From: Clostridia bacterium
Lineage (GTDB): Bacteria; Bacillota; Clostridia; Oscillospirales; CAG-272
DNA: 45,346 bases
Reading direction: 5' to 3'
Assembly (NCBI GenBank): GCA_017454525.1
Contig: JAFTCT010000131.1
Coordinates: 1 to 45,346, forward strand
This document shows positions 36,240-43,824 of this stretch, piece by piece (position 1 is the first letter of the stretch; the number at the start of each line of letters is the position of its first letter). The notes under the pieces were generated by a model, which was not told the origin of the DNA, ran no database searches, and saw only the letters and a program-made list of their open reading frames with translations. A program made the translations under genes and the position numbers.

Positions 36240-37589
36240 ATGAGCGAACGAATTCATTTTATCGGGATCGGCGGGATCAGTATGTCTACGCTCGCCATGA
36301 TGGCTTTGAAAAGAGGGGATACCGTGACCGGCTCCGACCGGGAGAAAAGTCCCTTGACCGACGCGCTTGAAAAGAACGGCGCGACGGTCTTCTGTCCGCA
36401 GAGCGAGGGCAACGTCGGGCGCGCCGACCGCGTGGTCTATACCGCGGCGATCGCCGAGGACAACCCCGAATACATAGAGGCGACGAGAAAATGCCTGCCG
36501 ATGCTCAGGCGCTCCGCCTATCTCGGCGAACTGATGAAGGATTACGAGGTGCGCATCGGCGTCTCGGGCACGCACGGCAAATCCTCGACGACGGGGATGC
36601 TCTCGTCGATCTTCACGCAAGCCGGCGTCGACCCGACGACCGCCTGCGGCGCGGTGCTGTCGGATCTCGGAAGCGCCTTCCGGCTCGGCGGCAAAAAGCA
36701 TTTCATCTACGAGGCGTGCGAGTATAAGGATTCCTTTTTGGACTTCTTTCCGACGGTCAGTCTGATCCTCAATATCGAAATGGATCATACCGACTATTTC
36801 AAGGATCTCGCACAGATGAAGACCTCCTATCTGCGCTCGGTCGAGAAGGCGAAAGCGGTCGTCGTCAACGGCGACGACAAGAACGCCCTCGACGTGGCGG
36901 GGGAGATCCGCGGCGCCTGGGTCGTGAAGGCGGGCGTCACCGGAAAGGACCTTGATTTTTCCGCCGCGGCGATCGAGCGGAAGGGCGGATATTGCTCCTT
37001 TGACCTGATGAAGGAGAACGCGAAGCTCGGCAGAGTCGTCCTACGCGTGCCGGGCGACCATCACGTCGGCAACGCCGTCTGCGCCGCCGCCGCCGCGTAC
37101 GTCTGCGGCGTCGATCCCGACGACATCGTAAAGGGGCTTTCGTCGTTCGGCGGCGTGGACAGACGCTTCCAGTTCCTCGGGACCTACCGCGGCGCGCGCT
37201 GCTTCGACGACTACGCGCACCATCCGACCGAGATCCGGGCGACCTTCCGTACGGCGCGCGCGCTGCTTGAGGACGGTCCCGGCAGGCTGTTCTGCGTGTT
37301 TCAGCCGCATACCTTCTCGCGCACCCATGAGTTTCACGCGGACTTCGTGAAGGAGCTTGCGGGCGCGGACAAGCTTTATCTTGCGCCGATCTATCCCGCA
37401 AGGGAGGAAAAGGATCTCGGAGAATCCTCCGAACAGATCGCAAGGGAGATCCCCGGCGCCGTCGCTCTGCCGGATTTCGACGCGATCGCTGCGCTGCTTG
37501 AAAAGGAACTGTCAGAGGGCGACCTGCTGCTGACGATGGGCGCCGGTTACGCTTATAAGGCGGCGCGCGCGCTGCTTGAGAAAGGATGA
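36240..37589 (+). CDS. murC: UDP-N-acetylmuramate-L-alanine ligase
   Basis: A 449-residue Mur ligase that adds L-alanine to UDP-MurNAc with ATP, the first peptide step of peptidoglycan precursor synthesis in the cytosol. It has the N-terminal IHFIGIGGISMSTLAMMALK Rossmann motif, the ATP loop GVSGTHGKSST (108-116), EACEYKDSFLDFFPTVSLIL with NIEMDHTDYF, and the central-domain DDYAHHPTEIRATF followed by FQPHTFSRT. All are MurC-specific. Length is normal. GAAAGGAT precedes the ATG. It is followed 4 bases later by rlmB. Confidence 0.96.
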   Translation: MSERIHFIGIGGISMSTLAMMALKRGDTVTGSDREKSPLTDALEKNGATVFCPQSEGNVGRADRVVYTAAIAEDNPEYIEATRKCLPMLRRSAYLGELMKDYEVRIGVSGTHGKSSTTGMLSSIFTQAGVDPTTACGAVLSDLGSAFRLGGKKHFIYEACEYKDSFLDFFPTVSLILNIEMDHTDYFKDLAQMKTSYLRSVEKAKAVVVNGDDKNALDVAGEIRGAWVVKAGVTGKDLDFSAAAIERKGGYCSFDLMKENAKLGRVVLRVPGDHHVGNAVCAAAAAYVCGVDPDDIVKGLSSFGGVDRRFQFLGTYRGARCFDDYAHHPTEIRATFRTARALLEDGPGRLFCVFQPHTFSRTHEFHADFVKELAGADKLYLAPIYPAREEKDLGESSEQIAREIPGAVALPDFDAIAALLEKELSEGDLLLTMGAGYAYKAARALLEKG

Positions 37590-37593
37590 ACTC

Positions 37594-38391
37594 ATGGGAA
37601 ATTACGTCAAACGGGATTTTCATGAAAAGAGAGAGAATAAAGGACCCGCCGATGCGCCCGAAGGCGTGATCTGCGGCAGGAACGCCGTACTGGAGCTTCT
37701 GCGCGGCGACAGAACGGTCGACCGCGTCTTCATTCAGAAGGGCGAGCGCGAGGGCTCCGCCCTGCTCATCGAAGCGCTGGCAAAAGAAAAGGGCGTTCCG
37801 GTCATTGACGCTGAGAAACAAAAGCTCGACGCGCTGTCCGGATCTCTCAAGCATCAGGGCGTGGCGGCGATCGCCGCGCAAAAGGAGTACGCTTCGCTTG
37901 ACGATATTCTGAAGATCGCCCGGGACAGGGACGAGGCGCCTCTGATCGTTCTCTGCGACGGCATCGACGATCCGGGCAATCTCGGCGCGGTCATCCGCTG
38001 CGCGGAGGGCGCGGGTGCGCACGGGATCGTCATTCCCAAAAGGCGGAACGTCGGTCTGACCGCCGCCGTCGCCCGGTCCTCCGCGGGCGCGCTCGAGCAC
38101 ATGGCGGTGGCGCGCGTGGCGAACCTCGTGGCGGCGATGAACGAACTCAAAGAGAAAGGGCTCTGGATCTACGGCGCGGAAGCCGACGGACAGCCCTACG
38201 ACAGGACCGATATGAAGGGCCCCGCCGTGCTCGTGCTGGGCGGCGAGGGAACGGGACTGTCGCGCCTGGTGCGCGAGAACTGCGATTTCATCGTTTCCAT
38301 CGGGATGTACGGAAAAGTCAATTCCTTCAACGTTTCCTGCGCGGCGGCGGTGCTGCTGTGCGAAGCGGCGAGACAGCGGCACGCGCATTGA
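37594..38391 (+). CDS. rlmB: RlmB-type SPOUT 23S rRNA 2'-O-methyltransferase
   Basis: A 265-residue SpoU/TrmH-family enzyme, expected to methylate the ribose of a G in 23S rRNA (G2251 in E. coli) using S-adenosylmethionine. The N-terminal RNA-binding domain begins GVICGRNAVLELLRG. The three SPOUT motifs are DGIDDPGNLGAVIRCAEGAG, LVLGGEGTGLSRLVRENCD, and IGMYGKVNSFNVSCAAAVLL, where Phe replaces the usual Leu in SLNVS. The start at 37594 (MGNYVKRDF) follows AGAAAGGA, 7 bases upstream; this site sits over the murC stop, so the two genes are coupled. Other TrmH-family targets cannot be excluded. Confidence 0.92.
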   Translation: MGNYVKRDFHEKRENKGPADAPEGVICGRNAVLELLRGDRTVDRVFIQKGEREGSALLIEALAKEKGVPVIDAEKQKLDALSGSLKHQGVAAIAAQKEYASLDDILKIARDRDEAPLIVLCDGIDDPGNLGAVIRCAEGAGAHGIVIPKRRNVGLTAAVARSSAGALEHMAVARVANLVAAMNELKEKGLWIYGAEADGQPYDRTDMKGPAVLVLGGEGTGLSRLVRENCDFIVSIGMYGKVNSFNVSCAAAVLLCEAARQRHAH

Positions 38392-38430
38392 GCGCGGCGT
38401 GCGCAGTACAAAGAAAGGATCATTTCAAAA

Positions 38431-41400
38431 ATGCCTCAGAAGAACAGTAACGATCTGACCGCCGAAGAACTGCTGCGAAAACTCCGTGAGAACTTCGGCG
38501 AGGACGCGCCGACGACCGGCACGCAGATGACGATCGAAGAGACCGCGGCCATTCAGAATAAGCGTAAGGTCTACCGGTATAAAAAGGAAAAGCCGGTCGT
38601 CGACGAGGAAGAGGAGCGCGAGGACGACGAGGTCTCCGCGCGCCTTGCGCGCAGCATCGAAAACGCCGAGAGGATCGTAGGTGCGATGCATTTCAAGGAC
38701 GACGAAGACGGCGCGGAGGACGCGGACGGCGCGGAGGAAGTACCGGAGGAAGCGCCGGAGGAAGCGGCGGGCGCGCCCTTTGACCCGGCGCCCGAAGAGG
38801 CGTTTGACGCGTCGACCGCCGAAGCTGTCGGCGAAACCGACGGCGAGACGGTAAACGAAGCCGGAGACGCCGACGGACAAACGCCGTCTGACGGCGGCGC
38901 CGTACGGTTTACCGGAGCGGTCGTCGGGGACTTCGCCGAAGAGCAGCCGGTCGAAGAAGAGCCGGTCGGGAAAGAACCGGTCGAAGAGGAACCGGTTGAG
39001 GAAGAACCGACTGAGGAAGAACCGGCTGAGGAAGAGCCAGTCGAAGAGGAGCCGGTCGAAGAGGAGCCGGTTGAGGAAGAGCCGGACGAAGAGGAGCCGG
39101 TCGAAGAGGAGCCGGTCGGAGAAAACGCCGTTGAGGAGGACCTCGCCGAAGAGGAGCCCGACGGCGAAAAGGAACCGGAAGACGAGACCTTCGACGATCT
39201 TGCCGGCGTGACCTTCCGCACGGCGGGCGCGCCGCGCGCCGGGGACGGCGAGAGCGGGGAATACGGCGATCACGGGGAATACGGCGAAAACGCGGAGGGC
39301 TCCGCTTTCGCGGAGGAGGACGGTTTCTTTGAGAGCGTCCTTGACGGCATCGAAGTTCCCGAAAGGACCGCCGCCGAAGAGCCGGACGGGGATGAGAGCG
39401 AAGAAACGCTCTCTTGTGCGGACGAAGAGCACGGCGAAGGGCTTGTGACGCTTCCCGAAAGATCCGGTAAAAACGAAATCACAGAGGACGGCGCGGAAAC
39501 GGACGGCGCGCCGGTCGAAGAAGCGATATCCGGAGAAGCGATATCCGAAGAGGCGATATCCGAAGAAGCGATATCCGAAGAGGCGATATCCGAAGAAGCG
39601 ATATCCGAAGAGGCAATATCCGAAGAAGCGGCGTCCGAAGAGACGGCGTCCGAAGAGACGGCGTCCGAAGAAAAGAGCGGGCTTTCGGTCGACGAGGAAG
39701 ACGAAGCGCAGCTCATGATGATCTTCGGCATGAACAAGGACCTGGAGAAGAAATTCGGCAAGGAAAAGGCGAAGGAGCTGCGCGGAAAGATCGACCGTCC
39801 GGAGGAACAGCCGAAGGACGAATACGAGTCGCCCGGTCAGAACGAAAAGATCTTCGCGGAGTTCAGGCGCGCCTACAGGGCGCTGAATATCCGCACGGTG
39901 CTTGCGCTGATCGCCCTTGCCCTGACCTTCGTGTTTGAAGCGCTGCCCGCGCTCGTTCCGGGCGGGACGCAGGCGGTCTTCCCCAGGGCGGTCGCGATGT
40001 TCCTTTCCAATCCCGTGTACGCGGCGCTTGTCAATATGCAATGGACGCTGATCCTGGCGGCGATCGGATATAAGGAGTTCTTTTCGGGAGTCCGGTCGAT
40101 CGGCAGCGGCCGCTCGACGCCCGAGATCCTGCTCTCGCTCACCGTTGTGCTCCATCTGATCTACGAGGGCGGTATGATCTACTGCCACAGCGTCAACGCG
40201 CAATACTATAATCTGCCGGTCGCACTCTGCGTCTGCCTTGCGCTCTTCTTTGCAAAAACCGAACTCAAGAGGAACCTGCTGTCCTTCAAGATCGTCAGCA
40301 GCAAGAAGACCAAATACGTCGTCACGCCCCTCGACGGCGACGCGATGACCCTCGAGAAGGAAGCGTTCGGCGACGCCGCGGGACAGGGCGCGGGCGTATA
40401 CGGCGTCAAGCGCACGAAGTTCGTTTCGGGCTTTGCCGCGCGCAGCGCAAAGGAGCCGAAGTATATGGGCGCGACGGGCATTTTCGCCACCGTCATCGTC
40501 GTGATCGCGCTGGTGTTCTTCCTGCTCGGCTTCTATTTCAGCAAGGAAACGACGGCGAAACTGCGGATCATGGCGGCGTTCAACCTCTCTATCCTCGCCG
40601 CGCTCTTCTGTATGCCGGTGTCCGCGCTCATCACCTTCTGCCTGCCGTTCTATAAAGCGGCGAGGAAGGCGTACGATATGGACAGCGCCATCATCGGCGG
40701 AAAATCGCTCGAGGAGTACGCCGACGCGACGGTCATTTCCTTTGAGGATAAGGACATCTTCCCGTCGGAAAACGTGCGCGTCCGTTCGCTCAAGCTCTAC
40801 GGCGACAGCCGGATCGATCACGTGCTCTTCGGCGTGGCAAGTCTCTTCAAAAAACTCGGCGGACCGCTTGAAGAGGTCTTCGCCGTCGCCACAAAGGAAT
40901 CGGGGGTCACCGGGGACGTCGATCTGCTGGAGATCGACCGCGACGGCGTCGAAGCGGCGGTCAAGGGCGTGAACGTTTACGTCGGTTCCTCCGCCTTCAT
41001 GCGCAGAAGAAACCTGCTCACCGGCGTGAGCGAGGAGGACGAAGCGCTCGAGCTCGAAGGAAAGATCCGCATCATGTACGTCGCCATCGGCAGGGAACTG
41101 TCCGCGAAGATGTATATCGAATATATTCCCGACAAGGAATTCCGCGGCGTGATGGCGTCGCTCTACCGGTCGGGGATGTGCGTCGGCGTGCGCACACTTG
41201 ATCCCAATATCGACGACCGGATGATGCAGCGGCACGTCGATCTCTCGAAATATCCCGTCAAGATCCTGCGCAGGGAGAAGGTCGACGACGAGGGCGTCAG
41301 CGAACGCGTGAACGCCGGCATCGTCTCGAAACGCGGCGCGAAGGGACTGCTCAAGAGTCTGTCGTTCTGCCGCAGAGTCCTGCAGGTCGTGCGCGCGGAA

Positions 41401-41571
41401 ACGGTTCTGAAGGTCGTGTCGATCGTCCTGGGCGCGGCGCTGGCAGTCCTCATCCTCGTGATGACCGGCATCGGAAAACTGAACGGCGCCTACGCCGTCG
41501 GCTCCTTCTGGACGACGCTGTACCAGCTCTGCTTCACGGCGCTTGCCGCGCTCATCGCCCTGATGTTCTGA
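38431..41571 (+). CDS. Large membrane protein: acidic repeat region plus degenerate P-type-ATPase-like core
   Basis: A 1046-residue protein. Residues 1-480 are highly acidic and low-complexity, with two 15-bp-periodic repeat tracts: twelve PVEEE-type units (173-232) and ten EAISE-type units (364-413). The C-terminal half has the layout of a P1-type ATPase: helices near 489-512, 530-550, 565-612, 680-704 and 712-740, a cytoplasmic part (about 745-985), and two closing helices (991-1012, 1020-1045). Where a P-type ATPase has CPC in the membrane, this one has C727-M-P. Where the phosphorylation motif DKTGTLT should be, it reads FEDKDIFP (771-778), with Glu772 at the Asp site. NVYVGSSAF and RGVMASLYRSGMCVGVRTLD resemble the nucleotide and hinge parts. 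No TGES is seen. It is likely a catalytically dead homologue with a sensing or scaffold role; the cargo or partner is unknown. Confidence 0.75.
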   Translation: MPQKNSNDLTAEELLRKLRENFGEDAPTTGTQMTIEETAAIQNKRKVYRYKKEKPVVDEEEEREDDEVSARLARSIENAERIVGAMHFKDDEDGAEDADGAEEVPEEAPEEAAGAPFDPAPEEAFDASTAEAVGETDGETVNEAGDADGQTPSDGGAVRFTGAVVGDFAEEQPVEEEPVGKEPVEEEPVEEEPTEEEPAEEEPVEEEPVEEEPVEEEPDEEEPVEEEPVGENAVEEDLAEEEPDGEKEPEDETFDDLAGVTFRTAGAPRAGDGESGEYGDHGEYGENAEGSAFAEEDGFFESVLDGIEVPERTAAEEPDGDESEETLSCADEEHGEGLVTLPERSGKNEITEDGAETDGAPVEEAISGEAISEEAISEEAISEEAISEEAISEEAISEEAASEETASEETASEEKSGLSVDEEDEAQLMMIFGMNKDLEKKFGKEKAKELRGKIDRPEEQPKDEYESPGQNEKIFAEFRRAYRALNIRTVLALIALALTFVFEALPALVPGGTQAVFPRAVAMFLSNPVYAALVNMQWTLILAAIGYKEFFSGVRSIGSGRSTPEILLSLTVVLHLIYEGGMIYCHSVNAQYYNLPVALCVCLALFFAKTELKRNLLSFKIVSSKKTKYVVTPLDGDAMTLEKEAFGDAAGQGAGVYGVKRTKFVSGFAARSAKEPKYMGATGIFATVIVVIALVFFLLGFYFSKETTAKLRIMAAFNLSILAALFCMPVSALITFCLPFYKAARKAYDMDSAIIGGKSLEEYADATVISFEDKDIFPSENVRVRSLKLYGDSRIDHVLFGVASLFKKLGGPLEEVFAVATKESGVTGDVDLLEIDRDGVEAAVKGVNVYVGSSAFMRRRNLLTGVSEEDEALELEGKIRIMYVAIGRELSAKMYIEYIPDKEFRGVMASLYRSGMCVGVRTLDPNIDDRMMQRHVDLSKYPVKILRREKVDDEGVSERVNAGIVSKRGAKGLLKSLSFCRRVLQVVRAETVLKVVSIVLGAALAVLILVMTGIGKLNGAYAVGSFWTTLYQLCFTALAALIALMF
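38947..39126 (+). repeat. 15-bp coding repeat (PVEEE units)
   Basis: Twelve in-frame 15-bp units, most encoding Pro-Val-Glu-Glu-Glu with changes at the second and third positions (PT, PA, PD, VGKE). Synonymous codons alternate (gaa/gag, ccg/cca, gtc/gtt), so the tract is old enough to have diverged, but its unit length is exact. Confidence 0.9.
39520..39669 (+). repeat. 15-bp coding repeat (EAISE units)
   Basis: Ten in-frame 15-bp units: seven EAIS(G/E), one EAASE and two ETASE. The DNA unit GAAGCGATATCCGAA is nearly identical in the central copies, suggesting recent expansion by slippage or unequal exchange. The rare codon ATA recurs in this tract, unlike the GC-rich usage around it. Confidence 0.9.
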
Positions 41572-41579
41572 AGCGTCCC

Positions 41580-41609
41580 GAAGCAGCCGCGTCAAAGCGC
41601 GGCTGCTTC
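41580..41609 (+). other. 12-bp hairpin upstream of the radical SAM gene
   Basis: GAAGCAGCCGCG (41580-41591) pairs perfectly with CGCGGCTGCTTC (41598-41609), 6-base loop. It begins 9 bases after the previous stop and ends 15 bases before the next ATG. There is no T-run, so it may be an mRNA processing or stability element rather than a terminator. Confidence 0.6.
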
Positions 41610-43475: not shown

Positions 43476-43509
43476 ATGCGCGGCGCTCCGGGAAAGGAAG
43501 TATAATACT

Positions 43510-43824
43510 ATGAAAAAAACATTTTGCGCGATCCTTGCGATCCTTGTGCTCTCGGCGTTTCTCGTTTCCTGCGCCGGCGATCCGCTCGTGGGCAAGTGGC
43601 ACAACGACGAACAGGGCTTTACCTTCGTCTTCAGAAACGACGGAACGGGCTATGCGATGTTCGGCTCCGTCAAGCCCCTGTCCTTCACGTATGAGGCGTC
43701 GGCGGGGTCTCTCACGGTCACCTTCCCCCTCTCGGGCGAGACCGAGACCTTTACCTACGCCTTCGTCGACGGAACGCTCGAACTGACGCAGAACGGCGTC
43801 ACCGACGCCTACGTCAGACAGTGA
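43510..43824 (+). CDS. Small lipoprotein, DUF5640-like
   Basis: A 104-residue predicted lipoprotein: signal peptide MKKTFCAILAILVLSAFLVS with lipobox LVSC (Cys21). The mature part GKWHNDEQGFTFVFRNDGTG, SFTYEASAGSLTVTF, and FAYVDGTLELTQNG-like strands resembles a small lipocalin-like or DUF5640 beta-fold family common in Clostridia. Function unknown; such proteins are often surface or binding proteins. GGGAAAGGAAG precedes the start at good spacing. It is placed between the radical SAM gene (34 bases upstream) and its DUF2344 partner (13 bases downstream), an unusual insertion into a normally tight pair. Confidence 0.82.
   Translation: MKKTFCAILAILVLSAFLVSCAGDPLVGKWHNDEQGFTFVFRNDGTGYAMFGSVKPLSFTYEASAGSLTVTFPLSGETETFTYAFVDGTLELTQNGVTDAYVRQ

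Follow-up and report, generated by a model that had tools for sequence, protein, structure and literature searches.

A gene for an acidic, membrane-spanning protein lies next to rlmB

The window, meaning the whole 45,346-nucleotide stretch of Clostridia DNA analyzed here, carries at 38431..41571 (+) a gene for a protein of 1046 amino acids, in which an acidic disordered tail is joined to a pseudo-P1B-ATPase. The open reading frame (ORF) has the coordinates and length reported in the initial annotation, and its status as a gene is supported by its translation, by conservation of the product across the order, and by the dN/dS values given below. An antisense ORF of 1056 amino acids (38425-41595, −) spans the entire gene and reflects the base composition and repeats of this region. 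Because the plus-strand protein is the one that is kept across the order, we take the plus strand to carry the real gene. ORF callers that select the longest frame would pick the antisense ORF instead.

Immediately upstream, on the same strand, is rlmB (37576..38391, +; TIGR00186, E 5e-66). When we compared 20 loci of relatives from 17 families of the order, rlmB occupied this position in 18 of them. The gene had first been described as part of an operon after murC and rlmB; rlmB is indeed a conserved neighbor, but murC is local to the window and not general. The downstream neighbors vary among the 20 loci (a TIGR03960 radical SAM protein, an EF-G-like protein, and others) and provided no functional link for the family, and the TIGR03960/TIGR03936 pair found downstream in the window is not general among the loci. 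In the window, a small lipoprotein-like ORF (43498-43824, +) is located between TIGR03960 (41625-43475) and TIGR03936 (43838-44482), and at another locus (L091) these two genes are directly adjacent. The linkage to rlmB is old, and alone it is no proof of a role in ribosome maturation.

Residues 1-470 (38431..39840, +) make up an acidic, low-complexity cytoplasmic tail with EEEPV and EEAIS repeats. Asp and Glu account for 34% of these residues and Lys and Arg for 7%, and in the DNA that encodes the tail, 15-bp units are repeated in tandem (38937-39122 and 39516-39656), so the acidic repeat region of 480 residues that was initially noted is present, with 470 residues as its extent. Most relatives also have a hydrophilic, mostly acidic tail that varies in sequence and length. 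A short N-terminal motif, LTAEELLRKL (residues 9-18; 38455..38484, +), recurs in the tails of 19 of 61 relatives, compared to 0.1 expected from shuffled sequences, and takes the form FSIDDILAEF or FSLEDILAEF in distant families. From its sequence, this motif looks like a docking motif. The lone strong-looking Pfam match, Extensin_1 on the tail repeat, was rejected as a low-complexity match under the cut-off of that model. In the same genome, a second long ORF (L002, G000:C111:5988-6164; 555 amino acids) carries an acidic repeat of the EEEPV type that matches the tail at 53% identity across 59 residues (E 3e-4).

The membrane region has the fold of a P1B-type ATPase

Residues 471-1046 (39841..41568, +) are predicted to form eight membrane helices and a cytoplasmic head. 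The AlphaFold model of these C-terminal 576 residues has a pLDDT of 93.1 and a pTM of 0.88, and its best match among solved structures is LpCopA (3rfu), with a VIA Z score of 21.9 over 489 residues and an rmsd of 8.7. The best Foldseek matches of the model are P1B copper pumps (E 2.5e-20). A profile built from 61 family sequences matched LpCopA 3rfu by hmmsearch (E 5e-37) and six true heavy-metal (P1B) pumps by hhalign (probability 99.8, E 9e-29). In addition, the AlphaFold model of a relative that is 14% identical to the window protein (pLDDT 90.6 from a 22-row alignment) gave a Z score of 24.3 to 3rfu. Since single-sequence searches with the window protein against Pfam, NCBIfam, and PDB sequences returned nothing usable, this homology must be remote; NCBIfam scans gave weak P1B matches for 37 of the 61 relatives and none for the window protein.

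In the model, the order of elements is two extra helices, M1-M2, an A-like insert of ∼55 residues, M3-M4, the P/N head, and M5-M6. The P-type architecture, with MA and MB plus six core helices and with A, P, and N domains, is therefore present in the model, with the A and P domains reduced. The secondary structure of the model and a gapped alignment column place a shrunken actuator (A) domain that lacks TGES between M2 and M3, at residues ∼623-676 (40297..40458, +). The initial annotation had recognized a P-type ATPase in the C-terminal half of the protein, and the profile searches, AlphaFold, Foldseek, and VIA all point to the same fold and, within it, to CopA-type pumps. We found neither an unrelated predicted fold nor orthologues with an intact DKTG in an adjacent segment.

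Catalytic and metal-binding motifs are lost across the family

We scored motifs in an alignment of the 61 family sequences (A1) against true pumps. The DKTGT phosphorylation motif is present in 0 of 61 sequences (the window protein has EDKDI), so its loss extends to the orthologues. The column for TGES, the dephosphorylation motif of the A domain, is gapped in all 61, and the GDGxND Mg2+ hinge loop is missing from all 61 along with the end of the P domain. The His of the N-domain HP dipeptide is also found in 0 of 61: in the window protein, GGPL (residues 810-813; 40858..40869, +) replaces xHPL and puts Gly811 at this site, which is occupied by Gly, Ser, or other residues elsewhere in the family. 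The motif-III Lys is unconserved. At the M4 metal site, which reads CMPV in the window protein (residues 727-730; 40609..40620, +), the cysteines of CPC-type sites are gone across the family and Pro alone is conserved (55/61). The earlier reading of CPC as CMP is partly correct, as CMP (residues 727-729) aligns with the CPC region, but the residues that stand at C-P-C are Met728-Pro729-Val730. Similarly, the losses first listed (the Asp motif, TGES, and the CPC cysteines) all hold, but the list lacked GDGxND, the HP His, and the motif-III Lys. The loss of catalytic motifs in the family is well supported by the alignment, and because five sequence motifs of active P1B pumps are absent, the family falls outside that group.

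The phosphorylation loop is replaced in the window protein by FEDKDIFP (residues 771-778; 40741..40764, +), of which EDKDIFP (residues 772-778) aligns gap-free with the DKTGTLT of true pumps. This gapless profile alignment places Glu772 at the Asp site, as the initial annotation had it, but Glu is not conserved there: the column contains D in 22, E in 11, S in 9, N in 4, and R in 4 of the 61 sequences, plus others. Because the column is variable, the conserved trait is the loss of the motif and not the Glu. Conservation is instead found at Asp773, which occupies the old Lys site (55/61), at residue 775 (D or E in 48/61), at Phe777 (52/61), and at Pro778 (48/61), which together give a new family motif, xDx[DE]xFP. 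In place of TGDN, the window protein has TLDPNI (residues 922-927; 41194..41211, +), and the Asp of TGD, Asp924, persists in 60 of 61 sequences within T-x-DPNI. Gly852 and Tyr898 are each conserved at 98%. In the model, a strand ends at Glu772 (model residue 302) and Asp773 (model residue 303) opens the next helix, so the model agrees with the register of the alignment.

These conserved residues bear on the alternative that the protein is still a transporter or enzyme. Under this reading, Asp773 (DxD/E) would stand in for the phospho-Asp, shifted by one residue, soft metals would no longer be the substrate, and the protein would work in a manner comparable to the claimed Mg2+ pump ERMA/TMEM94. 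The near-invariance of Asp773 and Asp924, the acidic residue at position 775, and the retained M4 Pro are in line with this proposal, as is the claim that ERMA is active despite its loss of TGES and GDGxND (PMC13322241). The presence of Asp at the old site in 22 of 61 sequences and the adjacent Asp773 in a DxD/E arrangement like that of HAD enzymes may point to residual or altered chemistry and count against a dead ATPase. However, the high-confidence alignment assigns the Asp site to a variable residue, the strand/helix boundary of the model concurs, and GDGxND, the motif-III Lys, and the HP His are all gone, so that ATP and Mg2+ would need another binding mode. We consider this alternative unlikely.

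Another proposal, that the protein is a passive channel or a lipid-binding or lipid-moving protein, would have the P1B core uncoupled from energy and the head acting as a gating or regulatory domain. The eight-helix core and the helix-breaking Pro of M4 are kept, and in TMEM94 the corresponding gorge holds a lipid (PMC12134183), but we recognized no conserved polar site in M4 to M6, where a Gln in M6 (42 of 61 family sequences) is the sole polar candidate and where the residues that bind metal in M4 and M5 of the pumps have for the most part given way to small or hydrophobic ones. We view this as quite improbable.

The family is near-universal in one order and under purifying selection

A first search returned matches in 57 of 59 genomes of the same order; true pumps account for a few of the lowest-scoring matches in this count (L064 and L065, for example). 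In a profile search, the family was found in 184 of 197 sampled genomes of the order (E < 1e-60), usually as a single copy per genome, and in samples of the class (245 genomes) and the phylum (299 genomes), its members occurred only within the order. The best matches outside the order scored ≤123 bits and covered only model positions 204-485 (M3 to motif II), and the four that we read were all intact DKTGT pumps. The five relatives that have names are Clostridiales or Clostridia metagenome-assembled genomes. In an unrooted tree with long inner branches, the family and true pumps are split with 100/100 support. For close pairs of homologues, dN/dS is ∼0.05 to 0.19, an approximate range since dS is near saturation, and these sequence comparisons show purifying selection on the family.

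In at least four fairly complete genomes from the order (G096, G122, G136, and G164), we found no full-length match to the family (best E between 1e-17 and 1e-30), which reflects either true losses or assembly gaps. One genome (G015) has two closely similar members, L024 and L068, whose differences at the three codon positions are 0.14/0.08/0.44 and which either arose by recent duplication or stem from a mixed assembly. One orthologue (L049, G056:C38:4887-6545) contains a single in-frame TGA that could be due to sequencing error, decay, or read-through.

The protein could also be a regulatory partner, or dominant pseudo-subunit, of active P1B pumps in the same cell, since it shares their fold and its own genome encodes two intact ones. 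Two other genomes (G132 and G189, 94% and 97% complete, respectively) have a family member, but no full-length P1B pump was found in either, and no pump recurs as a neighbor in the 20 loci. Because of these two genomes, the family is not simply an accessory of a P1B pump, and we consider a role as subunit of a resident pump very unlikely. Finally, a decaying pseudogene or a chance resemblance, for which one could cite the lost catalytic motifs, is refuted by the low dN/dS, the order-wide presence and conservation of the family, its separation in the tree, its new conserved motifs, and its strong fold.

A probable non-pumping role for a P1B-derived protein

Since the pump motifs are lost yet the protein is under strong selection across the order, its function is probably a new one that does not involve pumping. 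We think that the protein probably derives from a P1B (CopA-type) heavy-metal ATPase, is catalytically dead, and now functions as a ligand- or protein-binding switch, scaffold, or sensor. The CopA fold and the conserved absence of the Asp motif from orthologues support the dead P-type ATPase first proposed for this gene.

In the model that we propose, the family would have arisen in or before the ancestor of the order from a P1B (CopA-type) pump and been retained since. With the phosphorylation motif, TGES, GDGxND (Mg2+), the HP His (ATP), and CPC (metal) all gone, a normal Post-Albers cycle would not take place. What remains is a membrane core of eight helices together with the N/P head, which have gained a conserved set of their own (D773/F777/P778, GGPL, G852, Y898, and T-x-DPNI). 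The head would serve as a membrane-anchored switch that binds a ligand or a protein, with a cleft that bears the new conserved acidic site, and the long acidic disordered tail and its short N-terminal motif would recruit cytoplasmic partners. Sequence and predicted structure show the fold, the motif losses, the conservation, the confinement to the order, the linkage to rlmB, and the purifying selection, from which we infer that the protein lacks ATPase activity, that it is a scaffold or sensor, and what its partners would be; for the role, it is the composition of the tail and a weak sequence motif that are suggestive.

We also judge it reasonably likely that these proteins constitute an undescribed, order-defining family of pseudo-P1B-ATPases, that is, near-universal, single-copy, non-catalytic membrane scaffolds or sensors with an acidic disordered tail and a new xDx[DE]xFP/T-x-DPNI site. 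The initial annotation called the form of this protein unusual, and we also met no described family like it, but the form is common to the whole order and not unique to its own genome.

Relation to known P-type ATPases

By descent, the closest family is the P1B-type ATPases (CopA/LpCopA 3rfu, ATP7B, and ZntA). Both arrange their membrane helices in the same order (six helices preceded by two extra ones at the N terminus) and share an A-like insert, the cores of the P and N domains, the N-domain glycines, the M4 proline, and the motif-II Asp. In contrast to these pumps, the family lacks DKTGT, TGES, GDGxND, the HP His, and CPC, its A domain is shrunk to ∼55 residues, the second half of its P domain is truncated, and it has no metal-binding domain, in place of which the window protein has its 470-residue acidic tail.

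By situation, the closest family is TMEM94/ERMA of eukaryotes, which also has a P-type architecture without TGES and GDGxND and whose status as an ATPase is contested: one group found no ATPase activity (PMC12134183), and another described an active Mg2+ pump that depends on its Asp (PMC13322241). TMEM94 has ten helices, keeps the Asp in DKQGI, and is closest in structure to the Ca2+ pump SPCA (PMC12134183, PMC13322241), whereas the bacterial family has eight helices in the model, P1B pumps as its nearest structures, and, with EDKDI in the loop of the window protein, has lost the Asp-Lys-Thr motif altogether. Because of the ten helices and DKQGI of TMEM94, we regard the bacterial family as a separate, more complete loss.

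The superfamily fold is shared with classes P1 to P6 of the review "P-type ATPases: Many more enigmas left to solve" (PMC10654040), and the parts of that review reached by keyword look-up contained no pseudo or inactive class. Among open-licence PMC papers, we found none on pseudo or inactive bacterial P-type ATPases or on this family. Pseudoenzymes among P-type ATPases are almost unknown, and TMEM94, the one discussed case that we found, is disputed. With all tested catalytic motifs lost and sequences available from well over 100 genomes, this family shows directly which parts of the fold persist without ATP. Its near-universal presence in one order, together with its absence outside that order in the class and phylum samples, makes it a candidate for a core function that is specific to the lineage and that no current database model names.
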